Source: Desulfoscipio geothermicus DSM 3669 (GTDB lineage: Bacteria > Bacillota > Desulfotomaculia > Desulfotomaculales > Desulfallaceae). From it: a stretch of 64,000 nt of DNA. Shown here one piece after another: positions 19,285 to 24,053 of the stretch; positions within the stretch are counted from its first letter, which is position 1, and every line of letters starts with the position of its first letter. The notes below the pieces were generated by a model. That model did not search any database. It was not told the origin of the DNA and saw only the letters and a list, made by a program, of their open reading frames with translations. Where the stretch lies: contig NZ_FOYM01000018.1 in the NCBI RefSeq assembly GCF_900115975.1, positions 1 to 64,000 of the forward strand, given 5' to 3'. The position numbers and the translations under genes are program-made.

Positions 19285-20541
19285 CTAAATGGTAAAGTAA
19301 AAGGCTCCATTTTCTTTTTGGGTAAAGAAATTTGCATAGGTAAGATCGAAAACCCGTTCCTGATAATTTGTTACATCTATTCCTTCTTTGATCAGGGCGG
19401 CCAGCAAACCGGCGCCGGTAATGTCCCCTTGTAAAACAGCCCCCTTGATGCGCCCATTCTGGAGGATTACTTTTTTGTAAGCGTCGGCATCTTCGTCAAT
19501 AAGCTCCCGGTAACTTGCATCCGGTGGATTGATGAAGCCGAAGGATGCCGCCGGAAGGCCGAAAAAGGTCATAGCATTCCGGAAGGCGAAGTTATCCTCC
19601 ATACGTTTGGGCACGCCGGCCATATTAGAACCGGCCACCTGCCCCTGCTTGACTGCCGCCGGCCAAATTGGCGTAAGCATTACCTTGCCGGTAAAAGTTT
19701 CCCGGGATTCGCAAACATCCCCCGCGGCGAAAACACCCGCCACCGAGGTTTCCTGGAATTCATTGACCTTGACCCCCCGCCCGGTTTCAATGGGGGTACC
19801 TGCGAGGAATTCTATGTTTGGCCTTACCCCGGTCGCCACAATTACCATACCACAGGGTACGGTTTTACCGCTTTTGAGTTTTAAGCCGATCACATTGTCC
19901 TGCGCGTCCAGAACCACTGAGCCGACCATCTCGTTGAAAAAGAATTCCATACCATGCTGTCGGCATAGCTGCTCATACTTTTCCGCCGCCCGCCGGTCCA
20001 GTTGTAACGGTAGAAGCTGCCCGGCCACTTCGATAACCGATACCTTGACCCCGCGCCGGGCCAGGGCGTAGGCGGCATCCATACCCACCAGCCCGGCGCC
20101 GATCACTGCTGCGGCGTCTGTCTCACCGGCCATCCGGGCAATGGCCCGGGCGTCCGCCAGGTCGCGCAGGCCCCGAACCTGCTTGCCCCGCGCCAGGTTT
20201 TCCACGGGCGGCAGCACGGAGGATGCACCGGTGGCAATCAACAAGCGGTCATACCGCTCTTCTTCGCCATTTGACAGCTTGACTTTTTTACCTGCCGTAT
20301 CCAGGCTAATCGTTTCCCGACCGGCCAGCCAGCGAACGTTATACCGCTTAAAGAAATCTGCTTCCACAAAACCGGCTTTTTCCGGGGAACGCTCCCCGCT
20401 GATCACATGGTGCAGCATACAGCGGGAATATACTTGCTCATCCCTGGAGATCACGGTAATATCACCGGCACTATCCAACTCGCGGATGGTTTTGGCCGCG
20501 TTGATACCGGCGGCACTGGCTCCCAAAATAAGATATCTCAC
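19285..20541 (-). CDS. FAD/NAD(P)-dependent oxidoreductase of the CooS-CooF cluster
   Basis: A 418-residue pyridine-nucleotide disulfide oxidoreductase-like flavoprotein, related to NADH oxidases and rubredoxin reductases. It has the N-terminal FAD motif RYLILGASAAGINAAK, the mid NAD motif AAVIGAGLVGMDAAYALARRG, and the second FAD motif GVFAAGDVCE. A single Cys in VYSRCMLHH sits where NADH oxidases have their redox cysteine. GTG at 20541 overlaps the cooF stop (GTGA). In CooS-CooF-FNOR clusters this enzyme passes electrons from the ferredoxin-like protein to NAD(P). A longer frame from 20595 overlaps cooF and has no better ribosome site. Confidence 0.9.
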   Translation of the reverse strand: MRYLILGASAAGINAAKTIRELDSAGDITVISRDEQVYSRCMLHHVISGERSPEKAGFVEADFFKRYNVRWLAGRETISLDTAGKKVKLSNGEEERYDRLLIATGASSVLPPVENLARGKQVRGLRDLADARAIARMAGETDAAAVIGAGLVGMDAAYALARRGVKVSVIEVAGQLLPLQLDRRAAEKYEQLCRQHGMEFFFNEMVGSVVLDAQDNVIGLKLKSGKTVPCGMVIVATGVRPNIEFLAGTPIETGRGVKVNEFQETSVAGVFAAGDVCESRETFTGKVMLTPIWPAAVKQGQVAGSNMAGVPKRMEDNFAFRNAMTFFGLPAASFGFINPPDASYRELIDEDADAYKKVILQNGRIKGAVLQGDITGAGLLAALIKEGIDVTNYQERVFDLTYANFFTQKENGAFYFTI

Positions 20542-21059
20542 TGGTGCGCTCCCTCCTCCGGTGCGGTCTCGCCGGCAACTGGTTCCGGCAGACAAATTTT
20601 CTTTACTGTGCCCTGCGCGTCCACCTCAATTAGTGTAAGGGCGCCGGTGGGGCAGGCTTCCACACAGCGGGGGAAGGGCCTGCCATGACAGAAATCACAC
20701 TTGATCGCCACCTTGGATTCCCGGCTGTCCGGGCGAATAACCCCAAAGGGGCAGGACATTACGCACATCCAACACCCGGCGCATTTTCCCGGGTCATGGT
20801 CAACGGTTCCCGTAGCGGGGTTTTTGGTTAGCGCCCCGGACATACAGGCGGTAACACAGGCCGGTTCATCGCAGTGACGGCAGAGGATGGGCACCGGTTG
20901 CCCATGTGGGCCGGCCTCGATGAAATTCCTGGCCCGGTTGGCCGGGTCCTCCAGGTCCAGGCATAGTACGGATCTGTTCGCGGTATGCTCGGCCATGCAG
21001 GCCAGCTGGCAGTTCCTGCAGCCCTGACACAATTCTTTGTCAATGAGGATGCGTTTCAC
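20538..21059 (-). CDS. cooF: CooF-like four-cluster ferredoxin
   Basis: A 173-residue iron-sulfur protein with four cysteine clusters: CQGCRNCQLAC, CRHCDEPACVTAC, CAGCWMCVMSC and CDFCHGRPFPRCVEAC. This is the pattern of CooF and other HycB/DmsB-type electron carriers. It would carry electrons between CooS and the flavin oxidoreductase encoded next. GTG at 21059 has AGGGGGA upstream, and homology begins there (KRILIDKELC); the longer frame reads through the end of cooS. It is 13 bases downstream of cooS and overlaps the oxidoreductase gene. Confidence 0.9.
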   Translation of the reverse strand: MKRILIDKELCQGCRNCQLACMAEHTANRSVLCLDLEDPANRARNFIEAGPHGQPVPILCRHCDEPACVTACMSGALTKNPATGTVDHDPGKCAGCWMCVMSCPFGVIRPDSRESKVAIKCDFCHGRPFPRCVEACPTGALTLIEVDAQGTVKKICLPEPVAGETAPEEGAHQ

Positions 21060-21072
21060 TGTTATTCCCCCT

Positions 21073-22944
21073 TTACAATTCCAGGGCTTTTCTTTTCTGC
21101 TCGATGATCTCCGCCAGTTTTTCCGCCGCCGGCACGATTTCACCCTCCAGGATGACCTTGCCGCCGGTTAGCTGTTCCATATCCTCCGTTAATACTTTGC
21201 TCACCAGCTTGCTGCCGGTAACAAAGGGCGGGATGGCCAGATGCAGCGGCAATCCCAGGGCCAGGCCGAATGCGCCGTCAGCCAGGGCTTGTTCTTCCAG
21301 CCACTGCGGAGCGGACAAAACCAGGGGCAACTGCGGGATGTCGATATCAAGGGCCCGGGCCAATTCGGCGGCCACTATTTCCAGCCGCCCGATGGCCAGG
21401 CAGGGGCCAAAGTTCAGCACCGGCGGTATACCCAGCGTCCGGCAAACCTCTTTAAGGTTGTCGCCGGCCAGTTCCGCCGCCCCCGGGGAGGTCAAACCGA
21501 CATTTTCCAGGCCGCCGCTGGTACAGCCGGCGGACAGCACGATGATATCCCGCTTGATCAGTTCTTTGGTTAACCCCACGGTAAAAACATCATGTCCCTT
21601 GGCTGTAAGGTTGGAACAGCCCACCACCGCGGCAACTCCCTTAATTTTGCCGCCGGCAATCAGGTCGATCAGCGGTTTAAAATTGCCGCCCAGGAATTTT
21701 GGCAATGATTTTTCACTAATACCGGTGACCGCGTCGTCGTAGCCGTGTTCGGGTATATCCACTTGCACTTTACCCCGGCGCCGGATATAACTTTCCAGGG
21801 CCGCGTGCATAATTTTTTCCGCTATGGCCGCACTCTCGTTGCAATCGAACCGTACATAGTCGGCGTTGGCCTTTTTAGCCACGTCATCCAGGCAGATCTG
21901 CCGCACCAGAAACTGCTCGCAAATGGGCTCAATGCCTGGCACCGTGCAATTGAACTCAGATACTACCAGGTCGATGCCCCCGGTGGTCAGCAGGGCTTCG
22001 CTGGTAAAGTTGTTTCCGGCGTGGCCGGCAAAGACCTCCCGGCAGTGCGCCCCACGCAGCTGCATGTCCTGGCCCACGCAGGTGCAGCCCACTATCTTGA
22101 ATCCTTTAGCTCCACCCCGGCCCGCCAGCGCGGCCGCCTCGGGAGTAACCATCTTCTCCTGCAGCACCCCGATAAGGGCCTGCTGATGGCCGGTAACCAT
22201 AATATTGATATAATCCGGGTCCACCACGGAAAAACCCACTCTGGCGGTGGCAATTTGGGGTTCGCCCAACATGATGTCATTTAAATAATTGGTTACAGTC
22301 AACCCGTATAGCCCCGTAGCAATGCCCAATTTTAAAGCATGCAGCAGCATATCCACCGGGTCGCTGGACAGGTTGGTGCTGGTTTTGACGATGGCGTCGA
22401 ACACTTCGGACTTGGCACCGCCGGGTAGTATCCCCAGTTCCTGCCAGCGCCGGAATCTCGGCTGATAGGCCAGTTTTTCCACCAGGGTCATCTGTTGTCC
22501 CCGGGGGCGGTACAGGTCTTCCAGCACCCGGTCCGCCACTTTGACGGCCTGCTGTGCCGGGTCGGTTTCCTTGATTTCCAGCACCCCGGCCAGCTCACGC
22601 AGTGTTTCCGCTCCCTTAATGGTCAACCCGGATTTTCCCTGGCCAACAGCCCGCAGGTTATTGGCGGTGTTTTCCACTATGTGCAGGTAGCAGGCCGCTC
22701 CGGCAGCCACGGCCCGTAAAAAGTTCCGGGCTACGATGGTGTCGGCGGTGGCCCCGCAGACGCCCTTGGGGGACTGGGGGGTGATCCGGCAGGGTCCGTT
22801 GGAGCACAGCCGGCAGCATACCCCTTGCATGCCAAAGCCACACTTGATGGCTTGCCCTGGCACGCGGTTGAAGGATGTCTCCACTTCGGGTTTGGAACCC
22901 ATGAAATCAATCAGTTTGCTGTCCGCGGAAGTACACATTTTCAT
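21073..22944 (-). CDS. cooS: CooS-type carbon monoxide dehydrogenase homologue with altered catalytic residues
   Basis: A 623-residue homologue of the Ni-Fe CO dehydrogenase. Ligands of the D and B clusters are all present (C35, C43, C44, C47, C52, C63). The C-cluster ligands also align: His in VTGHQQ, and Cys in VGCTCVGQ, EFNCTVPG, VVGCSNLT, SAGCTSGG and NFGPCLAI. The residues that do CO chemistry in C. hydrogenoformans CODH-II are changed, however. His93 and the tunnel histidines 96, 99 and 102 align with Y86, I89, N92 and N95. GHNP becomes GHQQ, and active-site Lys563 aligns with Gln (LEEQA). It is followed by cooF and an NAD(P) oxidoreductase, and the start has GGAGGG upstream. CO oxidation is doubtful; another redox role is possible. 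Confidence 0.85.
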   Translation of the reverse strand: MKMCTSADSKLIDFMGSKPEVETSFNRVPGQAIKCGFGMQGVCCRLCSNGPCRITPQSPKGVCGATADTIVARNFLRAVAAGAACYLHIVENTANNLRAVGQGKSGLTIKGAETLRELAGVLEIKETDPAQQAVKVADRVLEDLYRPRGQQMTLVEKLAYQPRFRRWQELGILPGGAKSEVFDAIVKTSTNLSSDPVDMLLHALKLGIATGLYGLTVTNYLNDIMLGEPQIATARVGFSVVDPDYINIMVTGHQQALIGVLQEKMVTPEAAALAGRGGAKGFKIVGCTCVGQDMQLRGAHCREVFAGHAGNNFTSEALLTTGGIDLVVSEFNCTVPGIEPICEQFLVRQICLDDVAKKANADYVRFDCNESAAIAEKIMHAALESYIRRRGKVQVDIPEHGYDDAVTGISEKSLPKFLGGNFKPLIDLIAGGKIKGVAAVVGCSNLTAKGHDVFTVGLTKELIKRDIIVLSAGCTSGGLENVGLTSPGAAELAGDNLKEVCRTLGIPPVLNFGPCLAIGRLEIVAAELARALDIDIPQLPLVLSAPQWLEEQALADGAFGLALGLPLHLAIPPFVTGSKLVSKVLTEDMEQLTGGKVILEGEIVPAAEKLAEIIEQKRKALEL

Positions 22945-22977
22945 TTGTTTTCCCTCCTGTTTATAATTCTTATACTA

Positions 22978-22993
22978 GACTCAAATAGTATAC
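22978..22993. promoter_or_regulatory. Operator-like motif upstream of cooS
   Basis: GACTCAAATAGTATAC lies 34 bases upstream of the cooS start. Its reverse complement matches 14 of 16 bases of the motif at 23583-23598 ahead of the Rrf2 gene, making a shared Rrf2 operator likely. Confidence 0.5.
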
Positions 22994-23070
22994 TTTGGGA
23001 TATAACTATAGTAAAAATTTTCTTTTCCGACTGATTCAGAAATTAGCATTTGGATAATGGTGATTTTAAA

Positions 23071-23091
23071 ACTATACTAACATAGTATAGT
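23071..23091. promoter_or_regulatory. Perfect inverted repeat between cooS and the Rrf2 gene
   Basis: ACTATACTA, three bases, then TAGTATAGT: a perfect 9-bp repeat in the 200-bp gap upstream of cooS. It shares the TATACTA core with the two GACTC-type motifs. Confidence 0.5.
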
Positions 23092-23148
23092 CTGGTGGAA
23101 AAAAATAGTTTCAATTATACAAGTCTAAATCAAGTATAACAACGCAGC

Positions 23149-23556
23149 TTACGATTTACTTAAAGTTTCAAAATCATATTCCTCCAGCTTATCATTAATG
23201 GTTTGCTGGATGGAAAAAAGGGCCTTGTGAATGGCGCATTTGGCAGTGTTTCTTTTATTACACTCATCAGGGGCAATCAAACACCTGTTAACATAGACCG
23301 GTCCCTCTACCGCTTCCACTACATCCCGCATAGTGATTTCCCGGGGCATTTTGGCCAATGCGTAACCGCCGCCTACTCCACGGTAAGATTCCACAATGCC
23401 GGCCCGGGTCAGCATGCGGAGTATCTTTAACATAAAACGGATGGGGATGTGTTCTTGTTCCGCAATGGCCCTGGCCTCCACCACTTCCCCCCGGGGGAGC
23501 CGGGATAAATATAATACCGCCCGAAATGCATAATCCGTTGCTTGATTGAGCTTCAT
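23149..23556 (-). CDS. Rrf2-family iron-sulfur transcriptional regulator
   Basis: A 135-residue winged-helix regulator of the Rrf2 family (IscR/NsrR/CymR). The DNA-binding part has TDYAFRAVLYLSRLP, ARAIAEQEHIPIRFMLKILRML and the wing GIVESYRGVGGGYALA. Three cysteines in NRCLIAPDECNKRNTAKCAIH match the cluster-binding loop of iron-sulfur Rrf2 proteins, so it probably senses redox state, NO or iron-sulfur status. It is encoded directly upstream of cooS on the same strand. A motif shared with the cooS promoter lies 27 bases before its start, which suggests it controls both itself and the cooS operon. Confidence 0.9.
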   Translation of the reverse strand: MKLNQATDYAFRAVLYLSRLPRGEVVEARAIAEQEHIPIRFMLKILRMLTRAGIVESYRGVGGGYALAKMPREITMRDVVEAVEGPVYVNRCLIAPDECNKRNTAKCAIHKALFSIQQTINDKLEEYDFETLSKS

Positions 23557-23582: not shown

Positions 23583-23598
23583 GTGTACTATATGAGTC
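23583..23598. promoter_or_regulatory. Operator-like motif upstream of the Rrf2 gene
   Basis: GTGTACTATATGAGTC lies just upstream of the Rrf2 start and matches the reverse of the cooS upstream motif. Probable autoregulatory site. Confidence 0.5.
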
Positions 23599-24053
23599 TA
23601 TTTTTAAAAAATATAGCCTATTTGAAACCGGTTGTCAACCCCCGGAAGTAATATGTTGTCAACCGCACCGTCATAAAGCATTAAGCCCGGGGGAAACATT
23701 ATCCCTCTGAGTTTATTGTGCTTTATGTAAAAATGTTTCAGCAGATATTTTCTGCCATTACACACCAATTCTTGTGTTTATATTCTTGGATAATAATTAC
23801 TTTGGGATCCATTTAGCTTCCGATAAATGATATAATCTCGGGTTATAGGGGGGATTCCTTCAGCCATTTTGCAAACTGGCGAACCGGGGCCATGTATGAA
23901 TAAATTGTGTTATTGGATTTTCCCTGGTTTTTTTAAGATACTGTTATGTTGCTCTATATAAGAGTTCATTTTTACTTCCGGCTTAACCGGGTTAGGTATG
24001 TAAACGTTAGATGATGTTTGAAATAATTTTTCCTACATAGGGAGTGTATTTAT
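23599..24053. other. Intergenic gap without a recognised gene
   Basis: AT-rich. It holds an inverted repeat CATAAAGCA/TGCTTTATG with a wide loop (23672-23727) and a TATAAT-like box near 23829. Nothing else is supported. Confidence 0.5.

Follow-up and report, generated by a model that had tools for sequence, protein, structure and literature searches.

Introduction

Clade C of the Ni-dependent CO dehydrogenases (Ni-CODHs) was described by Inoue 2019 (PMC6344411) as proteins with a full set of C-cluster ligands, in which the catalytic His is replaced by Tyr and the catalytic Lys by Gln. Their genes occur together with genes for an FAD/NAD(P) oxidoreductase (FNOR), a COG0437 CooF, and an NsrR/IscR-like regulator. 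The same operon with an Rrf2 gene, as well as its likeness to NarB/NarC, was reported by Matson 2011 (PMC3082573), and Böhm & Land 2026 (PMC13056359) found FeS proteins in 72%, NAD(P)/FAD oxidoreductases in 71%, and transcriptional regulators in 58% of clade C operons. Many anaerobes, gut bacteria among them, possess clade C enzymes, and genome annotations routinely label these as CO dehydrogenases.

Two further relatives are relevant for comparison. The first is CooS-V of C. hydrogenoformans (group D-1, PDB 7b7q), which is inert toward CO and reduces hydroxylamine slowly and weakly, while NO reduction was not detected. It carries Glu at the position of the C-cluster ligand Cys295, an exchange (C295E) thought to be a prerequisite for its hybrid cluster. 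Furthermore, Glu556 of CooS-V is a ligand of the Fe/S/O cluster and Asn337 forms a hydrogen bond to a cluster water. The second is the hybrid cluster protein (HCP), which belongs to the same Pfam family (Prismane) and has a Glu two residues before the position of Lys563. Here, we analyzed a clade C locus in a 64,000-nt stretch of DNA from Desulfoscipio geothermicus DSM 3669 (the window). A preliminary description had presented its cooS gene as an unusual single homologue that has lost the residues for CO chemistry.

The Window Encodes an Intact Clade C CooS

The cooS gene is located at positions 21073–22944, the coordinates given in the preliminary description, and forms an intact ORF of 623 aa on the minus strand; the plus-strand reading of the same interval contains many stops. 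Its product matched the CooS equivalog TIGR01702 with 786 bits (cut-off 478). As expected from that description, all cluster ligands are present, i.e., C35, C43, C44, C47, C52, and C63 for the D- and B-clusters, and H253, C289, C333, C443, C474, and C515 for the C-cluster. Of the latter, His253 (codon at 22186–22188, minus strand, as for all codons given below) lies within a GHQQ motif, and Cys289 (22078–22080) aligns with Cys295, the ligand that is Glu in CooS-V. The alignment also confirmed the proposed replacements at the catalytic positions: Tyr86 (22687–22689) takes the place of His93, Gln552 (21289–21291) that of Lys563, and GHNP reads GHQQ. The combination of His93 and Lys563 that marks active Ni-CODHs is absent. 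Kinetic data for the H93A/K563A exchanges in CODH-II were not found in a literature search.

Conservation was assessed in 81 sequences, comprising the window protein and homologues of 63–94% identity, with counts that ignore kinship. Cluster ligands, Tyr, Gln, and GHQ were each found in 81/81 sequences. GHQ is followed by His in 73 sequences and by Gln in the remaining 8, which makes GHQQ a minor variant of GHQH. Conservation to this extent excludes chance and indicates that the Tyr/Gln/ligand pattern is under strong selection. Two observations concern the vicinity of Cys295: Cys287 (22084–22086), two residues ahead of this position, is nearly conserved (66/81, otherwise Ser), and Cys294, adjacent to Cys295 in canonical CODHs, is Thr in the window protein.

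The preliminary description had named a phylogeny against the CODH clades as a check. In a tree of 74 proteins, for which own-genome paralogues and PDB proteins served as references (clades were anchored by PDB references and signatures, not by Inoue's accession set), the window CooS fell within a Tyr/Gln group that keeps Cys295. Proteins from C. ljungdahlii, C. ragsdalei, and C. difficile belong to this group, too. The other four CooS proteins of the same genome, all canonical with His and Lys, branched elsewhere. The neighboring groups carry Tyr/Lys and Cys295 (D-3 like), Asn/Lys (D-2 like), or Tyr/Lys and Glu295 (D-1, with CooS-V), and thus reproduce the published clade D signatures. The complete C-cluster ligands, the Tyr/Gln replacements, and the position in the tree place the window CooS in clade C. 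Its type II D-cluster motif (C-X7-13-CC, present as C35-X7-C43-C44) and its N-terminus, which lacks the Cys x2-4 motif and has a single Cys4, fit group C-2. With this group (C. ljungdahlii/C. autoethanogenum cooS1 type), it has in common the C-cluster ligands, Tyr, Gln, the type II D-cluster, and the CooF/FNOR/Rrf2 operon, whereas it differs by GHQQ instead of the commoner GHQH and by two operator copies before cooS.

As the whole published clade has exactly these substitutions (PMC6344411), the view of an unusual single homologue does not hold. Both clade and operon are already published, and the locus is therefore a further, ordinary and intact example of a described, poorly characterized branch. 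Among named relatives, Desulfotruncus arcticus is the closest (94% identity). In a phylum-wide sample of 300 genomes, about a dozen yielded matches of 64–88% identity; the next matches, clearly set apart, reached no more than 45%. To our knowledge, no close relative of the window CooS appears to have been purified, and we found no biochemistry of one in the literature.

Identity with either of the two comparison proteins was rejected. For CooS-V (D-1), the change of Cys295 to Glu is absent, with Cys289 retained; for HCP, the score of 23.9 bits against TIGR01703 is far from the cut-off of 360.8 bits. Compared to HCP, which the window CooS matches with only 24 bits as opposed to 786 bits for the CooS model, the protein has an extra D-cluster and Cys295. 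The host genome itself encodes two HCP-like proteins of 568 aa and 427 aa (L002 and L008; contigs C40 and C46).

The Active-Site Pocket Resembles a CODH/HCP Chimera

Two pocket residues had been missed by the preliminary description. Glu550 (21295–21297), which precedes the Lys563 position by two residues, corresponds to Glu556 in CooS-V and to the hybrid-cluster ligand Glu494 in HCP, and Asn332 (21949–21951) aligns with Asn337 of CooS-V. Both residues are invariant in the 32 clade C and 29 clade D proteins sampled. In canonical proteins, the Glu550 position is occupied by Ser or His and the Asn332 position by Gln (13/13). Canonical enzymes of clades E and F (CODH-II, AcsA, and CODH-IV) have the same fold and all cluster ligands, but differ from the window CooS at these two positions as well as by His93, Lys563, and a Pro after GHx. 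Inoue 2019 (PMC6344411) reported the Glu for group D-1. Its spread across the sampled clades C and D shows that it is not tied to the change of Cys295 to Glu, and the equivalence of Glu550 and Asn332 in both clades is, as far as we can see, new here. Since CooS-V-type Glu and Asn occur in the sampled proteins of clades C and D and in none of the canonical ones, the pocket appears to be a chimera of CODH and HCP and not merely a degraded CODH. An HCP-type Glu in both clades would offer a mutational handle on how this scaffold moved between CO and nitrogen-oxide chemistry.

The AlphaFold model of the window CooS (pLDDT 91) is nearest to CooS-V (TM 0.96, rmsd 1.9) and less similar to active CODHs (TM 0.91–0.93). 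In addition to fold, Tyr, Glu, and Asn, the window CooS has in common with CooS-V an insertion after the Cys295 region. It differs by Cys at 295, Gln at 563, and a type II D-cluster motif, where CooS-V has Glu, Lys, and a [2Fe-2S] motif, respectively. As Cys295 is kept and C295E is thought to be required for the hybrid cluster, the site may still assemble a Ni,Fe cluster. Regarding the tunnel histidines, which the preliminary description had listed as lost, only position 96 turned out to be informative: Val/Ile is found here in clade C only, and the sampled proteins of clade D and of the canonical group have His. Positions 99 and 102 (N92 and N95) carry little weight, because they vary among canonical CODHs, too.

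CooF and FNOR Form a Portable Electron-Transfer Module

In line with the preliminary description, cooS belongs to an intact operon that also includes cooF, the gene for an NAD(P)/FAD oxidoreductase, and an rrf2 gene, whose product has three Cys. The adjacency of CooF, FNOR, and Rrf2 corresponds to the FNOR operon of clade C (the COG0437 label is that of the literature). The cooF-like gene (20538–21059, minus strand) encodes 173 aa with four [4Fe-4S] motifs (16 Cys), and its GTG start is located 13 nt past the cooS stop. The start of the FNOR gene (19285–20541, minus strand) overlaps the cooF stop (GTGA). In FNOR, the Cys of a YSRC motif is conserved, and the second Rossmann motif is followed by VIE. 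A glutamate after this motif usually indicates NADH, which suggests NADH as the cofactor.

FNOR matched best, and CooF second best, to chains of the aldehyde oxidoreductase 8c0z from Aromatoleum, and PadI/PadH (phenylglyoxylate dehydrogenase) were their matches among curated families. These matches characterize the pair as a portable NAD(H)–FAD–FeS module, which here serves CooS. Similarly, 8c0z and the nitrate reductase NarABC (PMC3082573) have a homologous Fe-S and FAD/NAD pair beside their catalytic subunits, although the catalytic subunits are unrelated. CooF and FNOR genes follow cooS in 54/76 loci and are absent nearby in the other 22, where we found no consistent replacement among the genes after cooS. 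Isolated neighbors of clade C cooS genes look suggestive: one locus without CooF/FNOR has a rubredoxin/rubrerythrin-like gene approximately 254 nt downstream (L021:8123–8668), and another has a flavodiiron protein near cooS (L022). Within the host genome, a canonical His/Lys CooS on contig C63 (L001) has its own CooF and FNOR, so that both types of CooS are provided with an FNOR module in one genome.

The Rrf2 Regulator and Its Predicted Operator

The rrf2 gene (23149–23556, minus strand) was assigned by profile match and alignment. Its product contains Cys92, Cys99, and Cys107 with the spacing C-X6-C-X7-C and is likely an Fe-S sensor. An Rrf2 gene with three invariant Cys codons lies upstream of cooS in 51/81 loci, and the same spacing is found in 47 of these 51 proteins. 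NsrR and IscR reference proteins are spaced C-X5-C-X5-C, which differs from the window Rrf2, and the scores against the curated NsrR and IscR models (63 of 182 and 70 of 207 bits, respectively) stayed below their cut-offs.

A palindrome, TATACY-N5-RGTATA (with up to one mismatch), is found ahead of cooS in 43/51 loci that have an adjacent Rrf2 gene (0.5 expected) and in 9/30 loci without one (Fisher p 2e-6, kinship ignored). The palindrome is 37-fold denser upstream of cooS than in the rest of these loci, and 42/50 rrf2 genes have a copy within 200 bp upstream. We consider this conserved predicted operator to be new, as we know of no report of it in the part of the literature we covered. It would provide a direct route to the inducing signal.

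In the window, predicted operator 1 (TATACTATGTTAGTATA, 23073–23089) is a perfect match, and predicted operator 2 (22976–22992, one mismatch) covers a −10-like element. Two promoter-like sequences precede cooS on the minus strand: TTGTTA-17-TATAAT (23114–23142), upstream of operator 1, and TTTACT-17-TATACT (22987–23015), whose −10 element lies inside operator 2. A third, TTGACA-17-TATATT (23610–23638, minus strand), precedes rrf2. Just downstream of it, a weaker operator-like site with two mismatches (23584–23600) points to possible autoregulation of rrf2.

A whole-genome search returned only five perfect matches to the palindrome, and 36 matches with up to one mismatch compared to 29 for the reversed-pattern control; the flanks of the remaining matches offered no sensible target. 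For both reasons, we do not claim a wider regulon. The sole other good match to the extended operator (AAACTATACCATATTAGTATACATA, L090:1501–1517, contig C44 of the same genome) lies near an integrase-like ORF and has no clear target.

In D. arcticus (L009:5740–5830), rrf2 has an internal deletion of approximately 330 bp that leaves the first dozen and last dozen codons. The rrf2 promoter is intact and unchanged relative to the window, and the operator copies before cooS depart from the palindrome. Unless due to an assembly error, this represents a natural loss of the regulator, likewise new here.

Possible Functions of Clade C CooS

NADH has a potential of −320 mV and CO2/CO one of about −520 mV. 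NADH can thus drive the reduction of NH2OH or NO, but not that of CO2; the transfer of electrons from CO to NADH is downhill as well. Family, ligand state, and the conservation of operon and operator are direct observations, whereas the substrate, the direction of electron flow, the metal content, repression, and its signal are inferred. For the function, we draw on published data for orthologues of about 67–69% identity and for one more distant enzyme. The redox- or NO-type stress role suggested in the preliminary description fits the orthologue data. In C. difficile, the operon CD0174–0176 is activated by sigma-B with a log2 fold change of about 8 (about 300-fold), alongside oxidative and nitrosative stress genes (PMC7494833). 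A clade C operon of C. ljungdahlii is increased upon O2 exposure according to Whitham 2015, as cited in PMC6344411, and an acsA knockout of C. autoethanogenum with intact cooS1 did not oxidize CO (PMC4895105). For the window CooS, CO oxidation is probably not the main task.

We favor, with about an even chance of it being correct, a NADH–FAD–[4Fe-4S]–CooS reductase for reactive nitrogen or oxygen species that is derepressed by Rrf2. FNOR would pass electrons from NADH via FAD to the four [4Fe-4S] clusters of CooF, and from there they would reach the D- and B-clusters of the CooS dimer and finally the active-site cluster. This site combines all six CODH ligands with Tyr, Gln, the hybrid-cluster-lining Glu also found in HCP, and the Asn of CooS-V, and it is this pocket that leads us to propose that CooS reduces some small oxidant, be it hydroxylamine, NO, or a stress species related to these, and that any CO chemistry is slow. 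The dedicated Fe-S Rrf2 would repress the operon at TATACY-N5-RGTATA and release it when its cluster is damaged or lost. More tentatively, the active site could be a true intermediate between C-cluster and hybrid cluster, with both Cys295 and the HCP-type Glu as ligands, in a NADH-dependent reductase for reactive nitrogen (or oxygen) species under a new dedicated Fe-S Rrf2 repressor. Several observations weigh against a reductase: Cys295 is kept, T. kivui CooS oxidizes CO (see below), the C. difficile operon is decreased at low iron, CooS-V is slow on hydroxylamine and showed no NO reduction, the HCP-type Glu is common to the clade D groups, and 22 of the 76 loci lack CooF and FNOR nearby. Should clade C proteins act as stress reductases, CO use has been predicted wrongly in many cases.

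A genuine CODH that is slow or works at low CO is possible, albeit something we doubt. Electrons would then flow from CO via CooS, CooF, and FNOR to NAD+, for CO detoxification or as reductant under oxidative stress, with Tyr and Gln only slowing proton transfer. Ni-CODH/FNOR units have been interpreted in this way by Inoue and others, the invariance of the C-cluster ligands including Cys295 agrees with it, and the reaction is exergonic. CooS–CooF1 of T. kivui, assigned to clade C by others, shows 13.9 U/mg CO:MV and 0.5 U/mg CO:Fd activity (214 and 111 for AcsAB; PMC8683389), and this CooS is essential for growth on CO, which its deletion abolishes. To call the CO chemistry lost was therefore too strong. 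However, T. kivui CooS branches early in the clade and may be unrepresentative (PMC13056359), and the acsA knockout lacked CO oxidation despite its intact cooS1. The host already has four canonical CODHs, one of them with CooF and FNOR, and the pocket contains HCP-type Glu and CooS-V-type Asn. We rank the NADH-driven reductase ahead of slow CO oxidation.

It is unlikely that the enzyme plays the part suggested for C. autoethanogenum cooS1, namely that of a redox valve or CO2 reductase that disposes of reductant or limits CO metabolism. The cooS1 knockout grew better on H2/CO2 and worse on CO, and acsA-knockout cells made extra CO (PMC4895105); the cooS1 phenotype could, however, have an indirect cause. 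The protein lacks the acid-base residues that serve CO2 chemistry, and NADH at −320 mV is too weak to drive CO2 to CO, so that another donor would be needed. Finally, a decaying paralogue devoid of catalysis, or a protein with a solely structural or regulatory role, would explain the loss of the catalytic His and Lys, but is very improbable, because drift would not preserve an intact gene in 81 loci spanning several phyla, together with the invariant ligands and Glu550 and a widely conserved operator.
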